Origin: Aurantiochytrium sp. KH105
Lineage: Eukaryota; Sar; Bigyra; Thraustochytrida; Thraustochytriidae
DNA length: 64,000 nt
NCBI GenBank assembly: GCA_003116975.1
Contig: BGKB01000024.1
Span: 186,001 to 250,000, forward strand
Direction of reading: 5' to 3'
Within the stretch, counting starts at the first letter, position 1; the number at the start of each line of letters is the position of its first letter. Positions 6,151 to 12,296 of the stretch are shown piece by piece. The notes under the pieces were generated by a model that did no database searches, was not told the origin of the DNA, and saw only the letters and a list, made by a program, of their open reading frames with translations. The position numbers and the translations under genes were made by a program.

Positions 6151-6703
6151 AAAGAAATCTCAGTAGACTCTGCGCCATCACGGAGGGGACAAAACAGAAC
6201 GGGGTCCAGAGCAAAGGAGTTGGTGGCACGAGGCGCAGTGGAGCGTGAGGGGCGGCTGCGGGAGCAAAGGAGAGCAGGCAGATTAATTTGGAGAACGACG
6301 GCCAGCACCGAGGATTCCAGGTCTCCTTCGCCCAGGAGGCAAACCTCTAACTCTCCAAGAGAAACACCAAGAAAAATCGCTCACGCCGCCGCTCGCCACC
6401 GCCATCCGCCGGCACTGCCATCACTGCTGCCACCGCCACCACTGCTGCCACCGCCGCCACCGCCATCCGCCGCCACCGCCCGCTGCCGCCCCTGCCCGCC
6501 GCCGCCGCCGCCCGCCGCCGAAGCCAGCTGCAGCCCAAGCTAGCTACCGCTTGAGCCAGCTGCAGCCCAAGCGCGCCATCGCCCCCGCCGCCCAAGCCAC
6601 CTCCGCGCGCGCGCGCCCGCGTACGAAGGTATCGATCGATCTGGCTGCGAGACGAAGCGACGCCTTGGGCGAGGACGTGCAGCTGCTGCTAACTGAGCAC
6701 GCG
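6151..6703 (+). promoter_or_regulatory. GC-rich leader of family member 3
   Basis: The sequence between the MITE and the ATG at 6704 is G/A-rich, then a run of imperfect GCCACC/GCCGCC triplets (about 6395-6525). An open frame from 6551 is in phase with the gene, but its translation (Ala/Pro/Arg-rich) does not align with the paralogs, so I treat it as leader. The MITE sits about 560 bp upstream of the start and may border or interrupt the promoter. Confidence 0.4.
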
Positions 6704-8146
6704 ATGGCCTCCGCGATCATGGCGCACGCGCCGGTGCCAGCCCTGAACCTGATAGGGACAACCAACATGTGGCAGGGACAACAATTAAATCACCAGACCG
6801 AGGCCGCCGGGAGAGGCCTCAATGGCAGCTTCGTCATCTTCGAAGTTTCCGGTCTCGAACCTGGCAGCGTGCTCTGCGCCGTGCGGGTGTCGCTGCTCGC
6901 GGTGACGAGGAACAATGAGGAGATCTTCATCACCAGAGCCGATATCCCTGCGGACGTGCTGCGCGAGCAGCAGCAAGGCGCCCTCGTGCACTGCCCAAGC
7001 CCAGCGGACATCGACAACAGGACCCACGTTCAGGTGAATTTCATCGCCTTTACTCGCAACGCCTATGGCAACGCCCTCTTCATTGTCAACGAAGGTTCGC
7101 TGGTGAAGAAGAACAAAACAAACGGAGCGACGGGCAAGTTCCTGCGCGTCCGGCTCGAGGTCGTGTGCAATGACGGCCAGCAGCATCTTCTCAACCAGGT
7201 GGACATCCGATGGCAGTCCAACCTGTCAAATGGGCGCAAGGAAGCGCATCGCGAAAATCTTCGTCACTTTCGCGTTGCGTACAACCTTCACGCCGCGAGG
7301 ACTATTCGACATGTCCTGGATCACGGCACCATGGATCCGTCGAGCCCCAGCGATAGAATGGGCAACCTTGCGTACCTCTTGGACAACGCCCACACTGCAA
7401 AAGAATATGTCGCGCAGCAGCAGCCCGAGGCGCATCTAAACGGGGATGTCTTTCTCTTGGACACCGTACGGTCCTTCCTCCCAAGACGCGCCCCGGCGTC
7501 CAGATCGCAGCTCGAGTTCGCAACAACGGAGGGGGAGTGCTACATGAAGCAGGACTCCAGAGTCTTGAGCGCAACGCCCGGCAGCATCGACGATGCCAAC
7601 GAAGCCTTCATGGGATCTCCAGCTCGCGGGCACGTTTCGGCGATTAACTCCGACGCACCGCTGGCCGTTCCAAGCAGCGATCTGGGAGCCTGGTGTGCGT
7701 CGGCCGGCCAGGGATGCGCATGCACGGAGGTCGAGCTCAATTTTGACCTGGATAACCAATTGCCCCCGGAGACGCTGCTCTCTGAGTCCGAGGTCTTTCA
7801 GTCTGTGGTCTCTGAGTCCGAGGTTCCTGCGACCGAGGACTACACATATCAAGAAAAAGAGGATTTCTCCCAGGTCATGCCTGATACCTCTGATTTCGGA
7901 GACCATGAGGTAGACTCCGAGGTCATGCTCGGCGACCTTCATTTACCAAATCTGGAGGAGAGCATCTACCAGGAATTTGAAGTTAAAACATCCAGCGAGA
8001 CGCACGAGACGCAGGATGTCCTCGCCAATTGGGGAGGCATGGAAAATCTCGATGACGAGAATGTAGATAGCTCCTCTCTTAAACGGGCTCGAGATGACGA
8101 CGCGGAGCTCGAGGATGCAAACAGCCACAAGCGATTTCGCGAATAA
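6704..8146 (+). CDS. Lineage-specific putative nuclear protein, tandem family member 3
   Basis: 480 residues from ATG 6704. ATG 6719 is an equally good start and matches the MAH start of the paralog at 8844. The N-terminal conserved domain (about residues 10-240) shares with the 8844 product: LIGTTNMWQGQQ, AGRGLN, IFEVSGL, NGATGKFLRVRLE, QVDIRWQSNLSNGRK and YNLHAARTIRHVLDHGTM followed by MGNLAYL. The middle and C-terminal part is rich in Glu, Asp and Ser, and the protein ends with two basic clusters, LKRARDDD and SHKRFRE, probable NLS elements around an acidic patch. No catalytic motif or membrane segment is visible. Function is unknown; the layout fits an activator-type nuclear protein. It is separated from its closest relative (8844) by about 700 bp, consistent with tandem duplication. 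Confidence 0.88.
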   Translation: MASAIMAHAPVPALNLIGTTNMWQGQQLNHQTEAAGRGLNGSFVIFEVSGLEPGSVLCAVRVSLLAVTRNNEEIFITRADIPADVLREQQQGALVHCPSPADIDNRTHVQVNFIAFTRNAYGNALFIVNEGSLVKKNKTNGATGKFLRVRLEVVCNDGQQHLLNQVDIRWQSNLSNGRKEAHRENLRHFRVAYNLHAARTIRHVLDHGTMDPSSPSDRMGNLAYLLDNAHTAKEYVAQQQPEAHLNGDVFLLDTVRSFLPRRAPASRSQLEFATTEGECYMKQDSRVLSATPGSIDDANEAFMGSPARGHVSAINSDAPLAVPSSDLGAWCASAGQGCACTEVELNFDLDNQLPPETLLSESEVFQSVVSESEVPATEDYTYQEKEDFSQVMPDTSDFGDHEVDSEVMLGDLHLPNLEESIYQEFEVKTSSETHETQDVLANWGGMENLDDENVDSSSLKRARDDDAELEDANSHKRFRE

Positions 8147-8668
8147 ACAACAGAAGGGACGCCTTACCGCAGTAGCCGCGAGGGGCGTCTTGCAAAGTGT
8201 ACATAATTGATGGAAAGAACCAATGTCGATAAAAAAAAAAACATAGAAAAAAAGCTTCTTTCCCCCTATACATAAATGAAATGATCTATGAATAGTAACC
8301 TCTTGATCATTCGCAAAGTTGACAAGAAACAGAAAAGAGAAAGAAGAAAAAAATAAAAGAGGTAGAAAAGAGTTTTCATTTGTTCTCCAGCCTAGGCCTA
8401 GAAATTTCGGTCTCGCAGACAAGAAACCTCGGACCTCGCGCGTCGCAGCCGCACCTCGCGGCACCCCTCGTCTCGCGCGGCGGCCTCGCCCCGCGCCGCC
8501 CGTCCGCCCGCGCCCTCTTCCCCCTCGTTCCTCGCTTCACTCGTCGCGAGGGCGCCGGCCGGGGCGAGAGCGAGCACCAGAGGCGGGCGCGCCCCCGCTG
8601 CCGGCGCCGCTGCCGCTACTGCCGCCTGCGCCGCTGCCTGCGCGCGCCCCTGCTCGGCTGGGATTACG

Positions 8669-8736
8669 CCGCCTCGCCCGCCTCGCCCGCCTCGCCCGCC
8701 TCGCCCGCCTCGCCCGCCTCGCCCGCCTCGCCCGCC
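8669..8736 (+). repeat. 9-bp minisatellite, about 7 units, in the leader of family member 4
   Basis: CTCGCCCGC-type units repeat about seven times in a very GC-rich leader roughly 110 bp upstream of ATG 8844. Read in the downstream frame it would give Leu-Ala-Arg repeats, which have no counterpart in the paralogs. Confidence 0.85.
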
Positions 8737-8843
8737 CCTCGCGCCAGCCGTTCGAGAGGACCCGCGGAGAGAGAGAAGGAAAAGAAAGGAAGAGGGCGAG
8801 CGAGACCAGCGTGCACGCGCTGCGCGCGGCTCAGAGACAGACC

Positions 8844-10091
8844 ATGGCGCACGTTATGGTCGCGCCGCCGACGGTCGACTTGATTGGCAACACGAACACC
8901 TGGCAAGGCCAGCAGTTCAACTGGCAGAATTCGAGCGCCGGACGTGGGCTCAACAGCAGCATTTCCATCTTCCAGGTGTCCGGCATCCCCGAGGACGTGC
9001 CGCTCTCGGTTCTCAAGGTGAGCCTCTTTTCTCTCGCAGATATGGGCAGAACCGAGGAATTCATCGCCAGCGCGAGCGTCCCTGCGAATGTACTACATTC
9101 CAGAGTGAATGCCGCCTGTGTGCAGGACCTTGTCTTTTCCGGGAGGGCGCACGTCATGGTTAGCTGGATTGCTTACCTTCGCCAACCCGGAGGCCGCGTT
9201 CTGATCTTCATCGAGCAAGGGTCGGTTACAAAAAGGACTGCCTCAAACGGTCCGAGCGGCAAGTACCTCCGCGTCCGTCTCGACTTCAAGTGTGAGGGCC
9301 ACAGTTGTGCGCTGCAAGGTCAGACGGACATTCATTGGCAGACGAACTTGACCAATGGTCTGAAGAAGCGCTACAAGGATCATCTTGGCAAGTTCCGCGA
9401 CGTATACAATGTGCATTGCGTCCGAACGATCGAGAACGTCATCGCAGAAGGCAGAATGCACCCGCAAAGTCCCTGCGACCAGATTGGCAATATCAAATAC
9501 CTCTGCGAGCATCTTGACGTTGTAGAAGATTACCTCTTGGGTTACTCGCAAGGCAAAGTCGAGGCACCTCTGGTGAAAAAAATCGAAGAGTTCATGCTTC
9601 GTTGCGAAAATAACAGGCATGAGACGCTCGACTTTGTCAGTTTCGCATCCCTTGACTCTGCGGGCGATACTGCAGGCAACGAGGACAATGACATTAAACT
9701 TGAAGTCGCTTCGATCACGAGCGAAGAAATGCGCTATTATGAGGCGAACGAGGTTTCATCAGAGTGCGCGGAGTTCACGGAGACCTCTTCGTGTCTTTCT
9801 CTCAGCATCTTCGGTCACGACATGCTAGCATCCACACAGGAGCCGAATTCTGGGATGCAAGTATCGGCCATGGCGTCCGAGTCGAATGATCTGCAAGAGG
9901 AAGATGAAACTTTTTCTCTGGCGATGTTCGACTCTTTGGTTGATAGCGTAGCTCCGGATGGTTCCGGGGCTCTGGCAAGTCTAATCTTTTCTGATGACGA
10001 GGCCGATGAGCCGACGCATCGTCAGAAGCGTCCTCTTCAAGATCAGGATGAAACGCAATCCTCGAGGAAGAGACGCCGCTTCGATCATTAA
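8844..10091 (+). CDS. Lineage-specific putative nuclear protein, tandem family member 4
   Basis: 415 residues from ATG 8844 in the context ACCATGG. The longer frame from 8319 is GC-rich leader including the 9-bp minisatellite. It is the closest relative of the 6704 product. Shared blocks in order are LIGNTNTWQGQQ (residues 12-23), AGRGLN, IFQVSGIP, a SASVPANVL segment, WIAYLRQPGG, NGPSGKYLRVRLDF, TDIHWQTNLTNGLKK and the helical block VRTIENVIAEGRM with IGNIKYL. After about residue 240 the chain is acidic and Ser/Thr-rich and ends in a bipartite-like basic tail, HRQKRPLQ then SRKRRRFDH. The NG-SGKYLRVRL/NG-TGKFLRVRL stretch is the best family signature. Role: probable nuclear or DNA-associated regulator, by architecture only. 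Confidence 0.9.
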   Translation: MAHVMVAPPTVDLIGNTNTWQGQQFNWQNSSAGRGLNSSISIFQVSGIPEDVPLSVLKVSLFSLADMGRTEEFIASASVPANVLHSRVNAACVQDLVFSGRAHVMVSWIAYLRQPGGRVLIFIEQGSVTKRTASNGPSGKYLRVRLDFKCEGHSCALQGQTDIHWQTNLTNGLKKRYKDHLGKFRDVYNVHCVRTIENVIAEGRMHPQSPCDQIGNIKYLCEHLDVVEDYLLGYSQGKVEAPLVKKIEEFMLRCENNRHETLDFVSFASLDSAGDTAGNEDNDIKLEVASITSEEMRYYEANEVSSECAEFTETSSCLSLSIFGHDMLASTQEPNSGMQVSAMASESNDLQEEDETFSLAMFDSLVDSVAPDGSGALASLIFSDDEADEPTHRQKRPLQDQDETQSSRKRRRFDH

Positions 10092-10613: not shown

Positions 10614-12296
10614 TTAGTTGATGGTGGCAATCTTCTCCTTGCCCTTATCCTTGTCATTGGCAGTAAAAGAAAAGATGCGCTCCGTGCCGCCCTTGACTCG
10701 TGCGAAAAAGCTGTGGCCATGATAGGTGGTCATGGGCGAGTATTCACCGGGCCCAAGTACAACCTGAAAAACCCCCTTGTCGGAGCCATCATCCCAAAAG
10801 AGCTCGACGGCTTCTTCTCGCGCGTTGTGGAAGCGCATTTCGATACCGTTGGAGTTGGCCGGCTTTCCATCCTTTGCCTGGTCTTTGCGTGGCTTGGGAC
10901 GGTTCCAAATCCACACGTTGGCGCTGTACTTGGTGCCTTTAATGACGGGACATCCGCCGTGCAGACTTAATTTGTCGAGTGATCCATCAGCCTCTTGACT
11001 GTAAAAAAGGACAGCGTTGCCGGCCTTTGGCTCTGAGCGGAGCGCCGTTGACGATGTGTTGCAGACCCACTCGGCGTCACTCTGCGCAATGTAGCCGGCG
11101 GTCCGCTCCGTGCCCGGCTTGACCAGTTGCTCGCCATTGTAACCCTCGTGCGTCTTGGACAGCGGAAAAACCGTATGGCCGCCCTCTTCGACGTCGGTCA
11201 GATACAAAAAGACGGTGGCAAAACGGTTGGTACCGTTGTTGACTTTAGGGTCGTGGCCGTCGTAGGCCTTTTCAGCAAACCAGTCGGTGTGCGGCTTGTA
11301 CCACTCGGTGAGGTTGTAACGGAGGACCTGAACGGCGTCGGCCATGTCGGATTGGAACTCCATGCCGAGCAGATCGAAGCTACGTTTCTGGACCTTGCGC
11401 GCGGCCCACGAGTGAAAGTCCCACGCCGTGCTGCTCGTGCGGGTTTTGTCGCGCCAGCCTGCAAAACCAACCTCGCTCGGTTTCAGCAGCTCGCGATTGT
11501 GCTCGAGGATGGCATCCATTTCGTCCGGAGACATGAAGTTTTCCACGGTAAAGACACGCGGCGACATGCTGAGTTGTCGGAGCGCGATGGGCTTGCCTGG
11601 AACGGGGCTTTCCACGCTGTCCGGGTGCCAGACACTGCCGACCTTGGCCAAAGGCCAGACAAAGTTGAGTCCTTGAGGAACCACATATGTTCGCTGGCCG
11701 TCCTCAATGTCGAAGAAGGAGAGCACGCGTCGGCCCCGATCCGTAAAAAGCTTGGCTCCCAGTTCGGGTTCGCATACTTGTACAGCAGCTTTTTCGTCTC
11801 CATTAGTGACCTTTGACAGAATCTCGGGTAGCGCCAGACAGGCGTCGCGGATAAGCGCGTCAAGGCCCGGGTAGTCGGCGGAGGATTTGGACAGACCCTC
11901 GCTGAGCCCGTCGCCGTTAAAGTGGACGGTAAACTGCACCGAAGGTTCGCGTTTAGTATCCTGCGAATACACGCTTTTGGACTCGCGCTTGAAGCCCCCG
12001 CGCGTCAGCAGCGAGAGACCCGTGGCGTCCTCCACTGCAATGACCACCTCCTCGGGAAAGAAATCCACGACGGCGGCCTTGGTTTTCGGGTCGTGTTGGA
12101 GCACGAGGGCCACAACGCCGGCGAGGGCTGCCACGAGCGCTGCGAACATAAGCATGGACTTGGCGAGGATTGCGCCTTCGCTGGGCCCTGCTACATTCTT
12201 GCGAACGGTCCTGTCGGCGCTCGGCTCTGCTCCTGCAGCAGATGTGTCCTTGGGGACGGCCCCGTTCTTGCGGTCCTTTAGCGTTTCCGCTGCCAT
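10614..12296 (-). CDS. Membrane-anchored prolyl 4-hydroxylase with a C-terminal VHL-like beta domain
   Basis: 560 residues. Short cytosolic N-terminus, one transmembrane helix at about 44-67 (type II), a linker region, then a 2-oxoglutarate/Fe(II) prolyl 4-hydroxylase domain at about 245-466. The iron ligands are visible: H336 and D338 (PHTDW), distal H446 (SLHGG), with K456 (GTKYSAN) for 2-oxoglutarate. This is the collagen/P4H-alpha class of the secretory pathway, which hydroxylates proline in protein substrates using O2. Residues 484-545 then align to the human VHL beta domain without gaps from W501 (VHL W88) through L514/L101, P516/P103, G517/G104, T524/S111, Y525/Y112, G527/G114 and H528/H115 to F530/W117. 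In VHL, W88, Y98, S111, H115 and W117 form the hydroxyproline pocket; here Y98 is Gln (F510 is adjacent). The fusion is seen directly; hydroxyproline binding is inference. Confidence 0.93.
   Translation of the reverse strand: MAAETLKDRKNGAVPKDTSAAGAEPSADRTVRKNVAGPSEGAILAKSMLMFAALVAALAGVVALVLQHDPKTKAAVVDFFPEEVVIAVEDATGLSLLTRGGFKRESKSVYSQDTKREPSVQFTVHFNGDGLSEGLSKSSADYPGLDALIRDACLALPEILSKVTNGDEKAAVQVCEPELGAKLFTDRGRRVLSFFDIEDGQRTYVVPQGLNFVWPLAKVGSVWHPDSVESPVPGKPIALRQLSMSPRVFTVENFMSPDEMDAILEHNRELLKPSEVGFAGWRDKTRTSSTAWDFHSWAARKVQKRSFDLLGMEFQSDMADAVQVLRYNLTEWYKPHTDWFAEKAYDGHDPKVNNGTNRFATVFLYLTDVEEGGHTVFPLSKTHEGYNGEQLVKPGTERTAGYIAQSDAEWVCNTSSTALRSEPKAGNAVLFYSQEADGSLDKLSLHGGCPVIKGTKYSANVWIWNRPKPRKDQAKDGKPANSNGIEMRFHNAREEAVELFWDDGSDKGVFQVVLGPGEYSPMTTYHGHSFFARVKGGTERIFSFTANDKDKGKEKIATIN

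Follow-up and report, generated by a model that had tools for sequence, protein, structure and literature searches.

A prolyl 4-hydroxylase joined to a VHL-family beta domain in Aurantiochytrium sp. KH105, a candidate writer–reader enzyme

Whether one polypeptide might both hydroxylate proline and recognize the product is the question raised by a gene in a 64,000-nucleotide stretch of contig BGKB01000024.1 of Aurantiochytrium sp. KH105 (the window, below). The gene encodes a prolyl 4-hydroxylase (P4H) followed by a domain resembling the beta domain of animal VHL protein (pVHL), the classic hydroxyproline (Hyp) reader. If the resemblance extends to ligand binding, the protein would both write and read prolyl hydroxylation; if not, the pocket conserved in bacteria and in this eukaryote must have a different ligand. 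VHL-fold domains accompany prolyl hydroxylases in several genes of this genome and in more than one layout, which allows a direct test of whether Hyp reading by this fold predates the HIF pathway.

Features of the gene are collected in Table 1. The other haplotype, on contig C112, encodes a protein with 554 of 556 aligned residues identical and four residues missing near the start. Places matching PF13640 in the genome fall almost entirely (32 of 33) into 16 pairs with equal or nearly equal scores, as in an unphased diploid assembly (76 Mb, 367 contigs). The protein has one markedly hydrophobic segment (19-residue mean Kyte–Doolittle value of 2.78, against at most 1.06 in the rest of the protein), in agreement with the anchoring transmembrane helix proposed by an initial annotation made from the sequence alone, and has sequons at residues 328, 354, and 413. 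As judged from sequence, the segment and the sequons would fit with a lumenal enzyme. Residues 116–230 matched no Pfam family, PF13640 being the only family matched in the protein, and lie mostly below a pLDDT of 50 in the full-length AlphaFold2 (AF2) model. Because this model is poor (mean pLDDT 58.8; residues 71–226 unmodelled), no claim is made on the mutual orientation of the P4H and VHL-like domains. An NCBIfam scan of five proteins gave no match.

Table 1. Features of the gene, in nucleotide positions of the window.
Feature	Position	Strand	Basis or remark
Complete ORF, P4H and C-terminal VHL-like domain (P0001)	10614..12296	minus	560 aa, internal stops 0
N-terminal hydrophobic segment, residues 48–66, probable signal anchor	12099..12155	minus	Kyte–Doolittle; AF2 helix 40–68
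Residues 116–230, conserved with the C44 paralog	11607..11951	minus	paralog alignment
P4H catalytic domain, residues 241–467	10896..11576	minus	PF13640, phmmer, Foldseek
H336-x-D338, iron ligands	11283..11291	minus	alignment to 2jig
H446, distal iron ligand	10959..10961	minus	alignment to 2jig
K456, 2-oxoglutarate ligand	10929..10931	minus	alignment to 2jig
Linker, residues 469–482	10851..10892	minus	pLDDT <50 at 469–475 and 477–482
VHL-like beta domain, residues 484–560	10617..10847	minus	sequence, profile, and fold matches; paralog over Pfam cut-off
Pocket-equivalent stretch W501 (W88), Q511 (Y98), T524 (S111), H528 (H115), F530 (W117)	10707..10796	minus	alignments

The catalytic half matches PF13640 at 53.6 bits (E 4.7e-14; cut-off 27). 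The closest solved chains are those of Chlamydomonas reinhardtii P4H-1 (phmmer to 2jig, 7.6e-26), which share the catalytic domain and its ligands at 31–32% identity in structural alignment (2jig, 3gze) but, at about 225 residues, have no VHL-like domain. His336, Asp338, His446, and Lys456 align with the H, D, H, and K of 2jig, which we take to be the iron and 2-oxoglutarate (2OG) ligands of that chain. In a Foldseek search with the low-confidence full-length model, P4Hs of algal, bacterial, and human origin rank first (3gze_A, 7.3e-15). The P4H domain and the four ligands named in the initial annotation are thereby borne out, and the assignment of the protein as a P4H, with prolyl hydroxylation as its predicted activity, is supported by ligands, family, and fold.

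Two particular P4H types were considered and rejected. An EGLN/PHD-type HIF hydroxylase does not agree with the hydrophobic N-terminal segment, and the first PHD2 row of the Foldseek search stands at 2.2e-6, behind the algal enzyme. Human P4H-TM (6tp5) is, like the window protein as predicted, a transmembrane-anchored P4H, located in the ER, and matches it by phmmer at 5.2e-11. P4H-TM has an EF domain, however, according to PMC7948501, whereas Pfam, the only resource used for this point, gave no EF-hand match in the window protein up to an E value of 10. For the peptide-substrate-binding (PSB, TPR) domain of collagen P4H, Pfam gave no match, but residues 71–226 are unmodelled. Elsewhere in the genome, a 2OG oxygenase (L044 on C42 and L004 on C146; PF13640, 1.4e-16) resembles by eye the cytosolic EGLN/PhyA type and has no obvious hydrophobic start.

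The initial annotation had aligned the C-terminal domain without gaps to pVHL residues Trp88–Trp117 and had named the Pfam model PF01847 as a check. The alignment holds, with Trp501, Gln511, Thr524, Tyr525, His528, and Phe530 at the positions of W88, Y98, S111, Y112, H115, and W117. The Pfam check failed: PF01847 does not match the window protein up to an E value of 10, and the four rows of its scan of this genome lie on contigs C44, C116, C104, and C113, the window gene not being among them. The gene on C44 and C116 is a paralog with the same layout as the window gene; it scores above the Pfam VHL cut-off of 21 bits (24 and 22.2 bits), and its VHL-like domain is identical to that of the window at 39 of 74 residues.

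The fusion recurs in this genome. A VHL-like domain is joined to a P4H in four genes and to a probable 2OG oxygenase in two, as collected by three own-genome protein searches with VHL-like queries and a profile scan of P4H loci. In the former searches, 21 of the 22 rows, several of them individually weak, fall in genes with a P4H or 2OG-oxygenase part. The VHL-like domain follows the P4H in two genes, precedes it in two, and stands after thioredoxin-like and 2OG-oxygenase parts in two. The C60/C1 gene consists of anchor, VHL-like domain, and P4H; its frame covers 84 of the 98 PF13640 positions and probably ends before the P4H domain does because of an intron. The C78/C169 gene (L034:1938-3377 on C78) consists of anchor, VHL-like domain (weak by sequence), ShK, and P4H. 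On C35/C161, two divergent neighbor genes each have a thioredoxin-like part, a probable 2OG-oxygenase part, and a C-terminal VHL-like domain. The thioredoxin-like match is at 0.029 in one of the pair, which has no PF13640 match, and PF13640 is at 0.013, below the cut-off, in the other; HxD and HGRP are seen by eye in the oxygenase part. Against the PDB up to an E value of 1, the pair retrieves no P4H chain and only pVHL chains (best 0.58). At L030 (C35:11001-15500) and L031 (C161:9001-13500) the related genes stand head-to-head, and the motifs SYRGH and TTFRGH are present.

Only the C44/C116 gene, one of the six, exceeds the Pfam VHL cut-off. VHL-like domains are carried by 4 of 17 PF13640 genes, and by four of the seven with similarity to the window P4H at E < 1e-3. 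Three of these four carriers contributed to the profile used for the scan, and further cases may be hidden by introns. A further gene on C104/C113 (L017:4108-5127, L018:4032-5051) has a 339-residue frame with a VHL domain that keeps Trp at position 117, no oxygenase, and no hydrophobic start (0.79); PF01847 scores it at 21.1 bits in the genome scan and 18.5 in a second scan (cut-off 21). Of the seven VHL-like genes detected in this genome, six thus include a P4H or probable 2OG-oxygenase part, a share biased upward because the C78 gene was detected only via the scan of P4H loci and equally divergent unfused genes would escape. An N-terminal hydrophobic segment is present in each of the six fused proteins (means of 1.85 to 2.78 over 19 residues). 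In a tree of 65 rows and 58 columns, tentative with its few columns and its long branches meeting at the fused clade, the six fused domains fall into a single clade (97/97 support) and the C104 domain lies among bacterial rows.

Membership of the VHL family was assessed further against 2506 distinct ORFs from bacterial loci, 56 of which form a VHL set, delimited with a profile built from the domains of this genome and run on loci recruited via PF01847 or a Calothrix VHL protein. The window domain alone retrieves 14 ORFs at E < 0.01, all within this set, and 26 at E < 1, with 24 in the set and the first outsider at 0.19. At E < 0.01, the C60 domain retrieves 10 ORFs and the domains of the C35 pair 38, again all in the set; the C78 domain retrieves none at this threshold and six at E < 1, all in the set, which makes it the weakest member. 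The likeness to bacterial VHL beta-domain proteins (Calothrix, Nostoc, Phormidesmis, and others) extends to profile–profile comparison with 11 bacterial domains, in which the window domain with its paralogs reaches an E value of 1.4e-11 and the six fused domains 4.8e-12. A profile that combines a single window row with 18 bacterial rows matches pVHL in the PDB at 1.1e-9 in one gap-free block; a profile of only the six fused domains reaches pVHL at 0.09, which is not significant and ranks behind five other chains.

The AF2 model of residues 472–560 (pLDDT 86.9), which was built from an alignment containing bacterial VHL rows and so shares part of its basis with the sequence evidence, has seven strands. 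In a structure search with this model, the matches listed (the best 50 of 994 up to an E value of 10) are all pVHL entries, with a best E value of 1.8e-5, a TM score of 0.73 on the query, and 72 matches at E up to 0.001. The VHL-type beta-sandwich that the initial alignment implied is therefore present in the model. A chance likeness over a 30-residue motif, in a domain outside the VHL family, would accord with the lack of PF01847 matches in the window protein and in four further fused genes, and with the poor PDB rank of the six-domain profile. Yet it is very improbable given the paralog over the Pfam cut-off and the mixed-profile match to the PDB, and the bacterial-ORF search, the profile–profile comparison, and the fold search already largely refute it. 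From these several lines (paralog, bacterial ORFs, profiles, fold), not all of them independent, sequence and modelling place the C-terminal domain firmly in the VHL family, although PF01847 misses the window copy.

In pVHL, Ser111 and His115 hold the 4-hydroxyl of Hyp, and Trp88, Tyr98, and Trp117 hold the ring and backbone, with Tyr98 contacting the backbone. Four residues are invariant in the six fused domains: Phe489, Trp501, His528, and Phe530 in window numbering, the last three corresponding to W88, H115, and W117. Ser or Thr at position 111 and an aromatic residue at 112 are likewise found in all six. Position 98 is Gln, Ser, or unaligned and is Tyr in none of the six, position 117 is Phe, and H110 is not kept. 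The replacement of Y98 and the changes of S111 to Thr and W117 to Phe had been read correctly from the window gene at the outset. So the predicted hydroxyl-reading pair is kept in the fused domains while the remainder of the site has shifted. Compared with the animal pVHL beta domain (PF01847; 1lm8, 1lqb), the window domain is alike in predicted fold and in the equivalents of W88, H115, S/T111, and aromatic 117, and differs in its place on a hydroxylase chain, in positions 98 and 117, and in its probable location in the secretory pathway. The pVHL E3 substrate receptor has, after the beta domain, an alpha domain with the elongin C (BC) box. The window frame ends at residue 560, directly after the last predicted strand, and has no alpha domain, which rules out a pVHL-type E3 role for this frame.

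The same pocket is found in bacteria. Among 57 bacterial domain rows, W88 is present in 57, Y98 in 40, S/T111 in 54, and H115 and W117 in 56 each. Unlike the fused domains, nearly all retain W117 and most Y98; some rows are overlapping copies of one protein, and selection by VHL profiles favors the motif. With the window P4H domain as query, phmmer detected no P4H (best E value 0.59) in 73 bacterial loci with flanks of about 1.5 to 6 kb; several of these loci overlap or are copies, and in three (L071, L072, L074) the match to the Calothrix query was confined to its start. Since bacterial domains with no P4H detected nearby keep the pocket, it is a feature of the family and is not tied to P4H, and by itself it is no proof of Hyp reading. 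Bacterial occurrence of PF01847 is sporadic: in genome samples from three phyla it is present in 9 of 292, 7 of 398, and 23 of 282, and in each sample one of the positives is the center genome, already known to carry it. A bacterial (Litorilituus) VHL protein is described in passages of PMC9002001.

These data bear on a reading in which the VHL-like domain serves as a general extracellular module of beta-sandwich fold whose ligand is not Hyp but another peptide, a partner protein, a glycan, or the domain itself, with a family-wide W/H/aromatic motif and P4H as merely one among many partners. The motif of the bacterial rows and the 73 loci devoid of a detected P4H agree with it, as does the finding that 4 of 10 multi-domain bacterial ORFs scanned carry another Pfam family (RicinB lectin, MliC, FG-GAP/SpvB, CAP); so does a 1881-residue frame that contains a tandem array of nine VHL domains in a Phormidesmis priestleyi MAG (L069:4750-10395). 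The upward-biased six of seven VHL-like genes joined to an oxygenase in this genome and the separate clade of the fused domains speak against this reading, which we regard as quite possible and as the main rival. Separately, an ORF of the third phylum sample (L109) has its VHL domain within a Tc-type protein with SpvB and FG-GAP matches.

IMG/VR scans with queries A1 and A2 and a prokaryote scan with query A1 gave no relatives, three Erwinia phage records have a P4H match covering 42% of the query, and 12 viral loci with a P4H match contain no VHL-like ORF (best 0.93). Weak fold matches to the VHL-like domain occur in BFVD, in Pithovirus and others (A0A481Z5Q7 of Pithovirus LCPAC202, E 8.8e-5, 19% identity).

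Between the paralogs, dN is 0.42 in the VHL-like domain, with dS at 1.9, near saturation, and 0.22 in the P4H domain; on these sequence comparisons, the VHL-like domain is constrained, less so than the P4H domain. Its alleles show five synonymous and one non-synonymous differences between the window gene and C112, and five of each between C44 and C116, where there is little sign of constraint.

The reading that we rank as most likely, and hold tentatively, is that of a membrane-anchored lumenal P4H with an in-cis VHL-fold peptide-binding module, probably for Hyp. The P4H would be anchored in the membrane, probably in the secretory pathway, with the VHL-fold beta domain on a short linker binding proline/hydroxyproline peptides in cis. 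By the most likely route, the 4-hydroxyl of the product would be read by Thr524 and His528, and its ring packed on Trp501 and Phe530. The enzyme could thus hold a repetitive Pro-rich substrate and hydroxylate successive prolines, or retain its product. Hyp reading in cis is suggested by the six genes in which the domain accompanies a P4H or probable 2OG oxygenase, by the fused clade (with the few columns and long branches of the tree), and by the invariant W88, H115, and W117 positions with Ser or Thr at 111. It is also suggested by the predicted pVHL fold, by the paralog dN of 0.42 against a near-saturated dS, and by the hydrophobic N-terminus, present in all six fused proteins and not in the non-fused C104 protein. 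The loss of Y98 in all six, Phe at 117, and the lost H110 argue against it, as do the equally conserved pocket of bacteria whose 73 loci gave no P4H and the allele differences of the C44/C116 gene. Of the writer–reader fusion proposed by the initial annotation, the writer half, the VHL fold, and the anchor stand and recurrence in six genes is added; Hyp binding and processivity are at the level of prediction.

The PSB of collagen P4H is helical (TPR). The VHL-like domain would be its functional analogue in a different fold, an unrelated solution to the same arrangement. The collagen P4H alpha subunit likewise has a peptide-binding module beside its catalytic domain, a precedent that favors Hyp reading in cis; according to PMC12433258, the PSB binds Pro-rich peptides and one Hyp-containing peptide, and its function is unknown. 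This behavior would also agree with a VHL-like domain that, like the PSB, binds unmodified Pro-rich substrate with no preference for Hyp; the aromatic residues Trp501 and Phe530 would suit prolines, and the changes of Y98 and W117 speak for such a reading. Retention in all six domains of S/T111 and H115, the 4-hydroxyl readers of pVHL, speaks against this third-ranked reading, which is distinctly unlikely.

In passages of PMC9618697, VHL is treated as part of the animal HIF pathway; PHD, FIH, and VHL homologs are reported in its two non-metazoan phyla (choanoflagellate, Ascomycota), and earlier work is cited for no VHL in choanoflagellates. Passages of PMC13223302 describe an engineered plant system with PHD3 and VHL as separate parts. 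A P4H–VHL fusion is not mentioned in the passages of PMC13223302, PMC10015696, PMC9002001, and PMC9618697 and is not described among the open-access matches listed, which is no proof of absence. A broader evolutionary scenario, which we consider somewhat unlikely, is that the VHL fold read Hyp before animal oxygen sensing, that secretory P4Hs with in-cis readers form a writer–reader family, and that animal pVHL is a cytosolic re-use.

At lower window coordinates, two adjacent plus-strand ORFs (6551–8146 and 8319–10091), with no Pfam match up to 0.1, are alike by eye (WQGQQ, WQ[ST]NL[ST]NG) and are perhaps a tandem duplicate.
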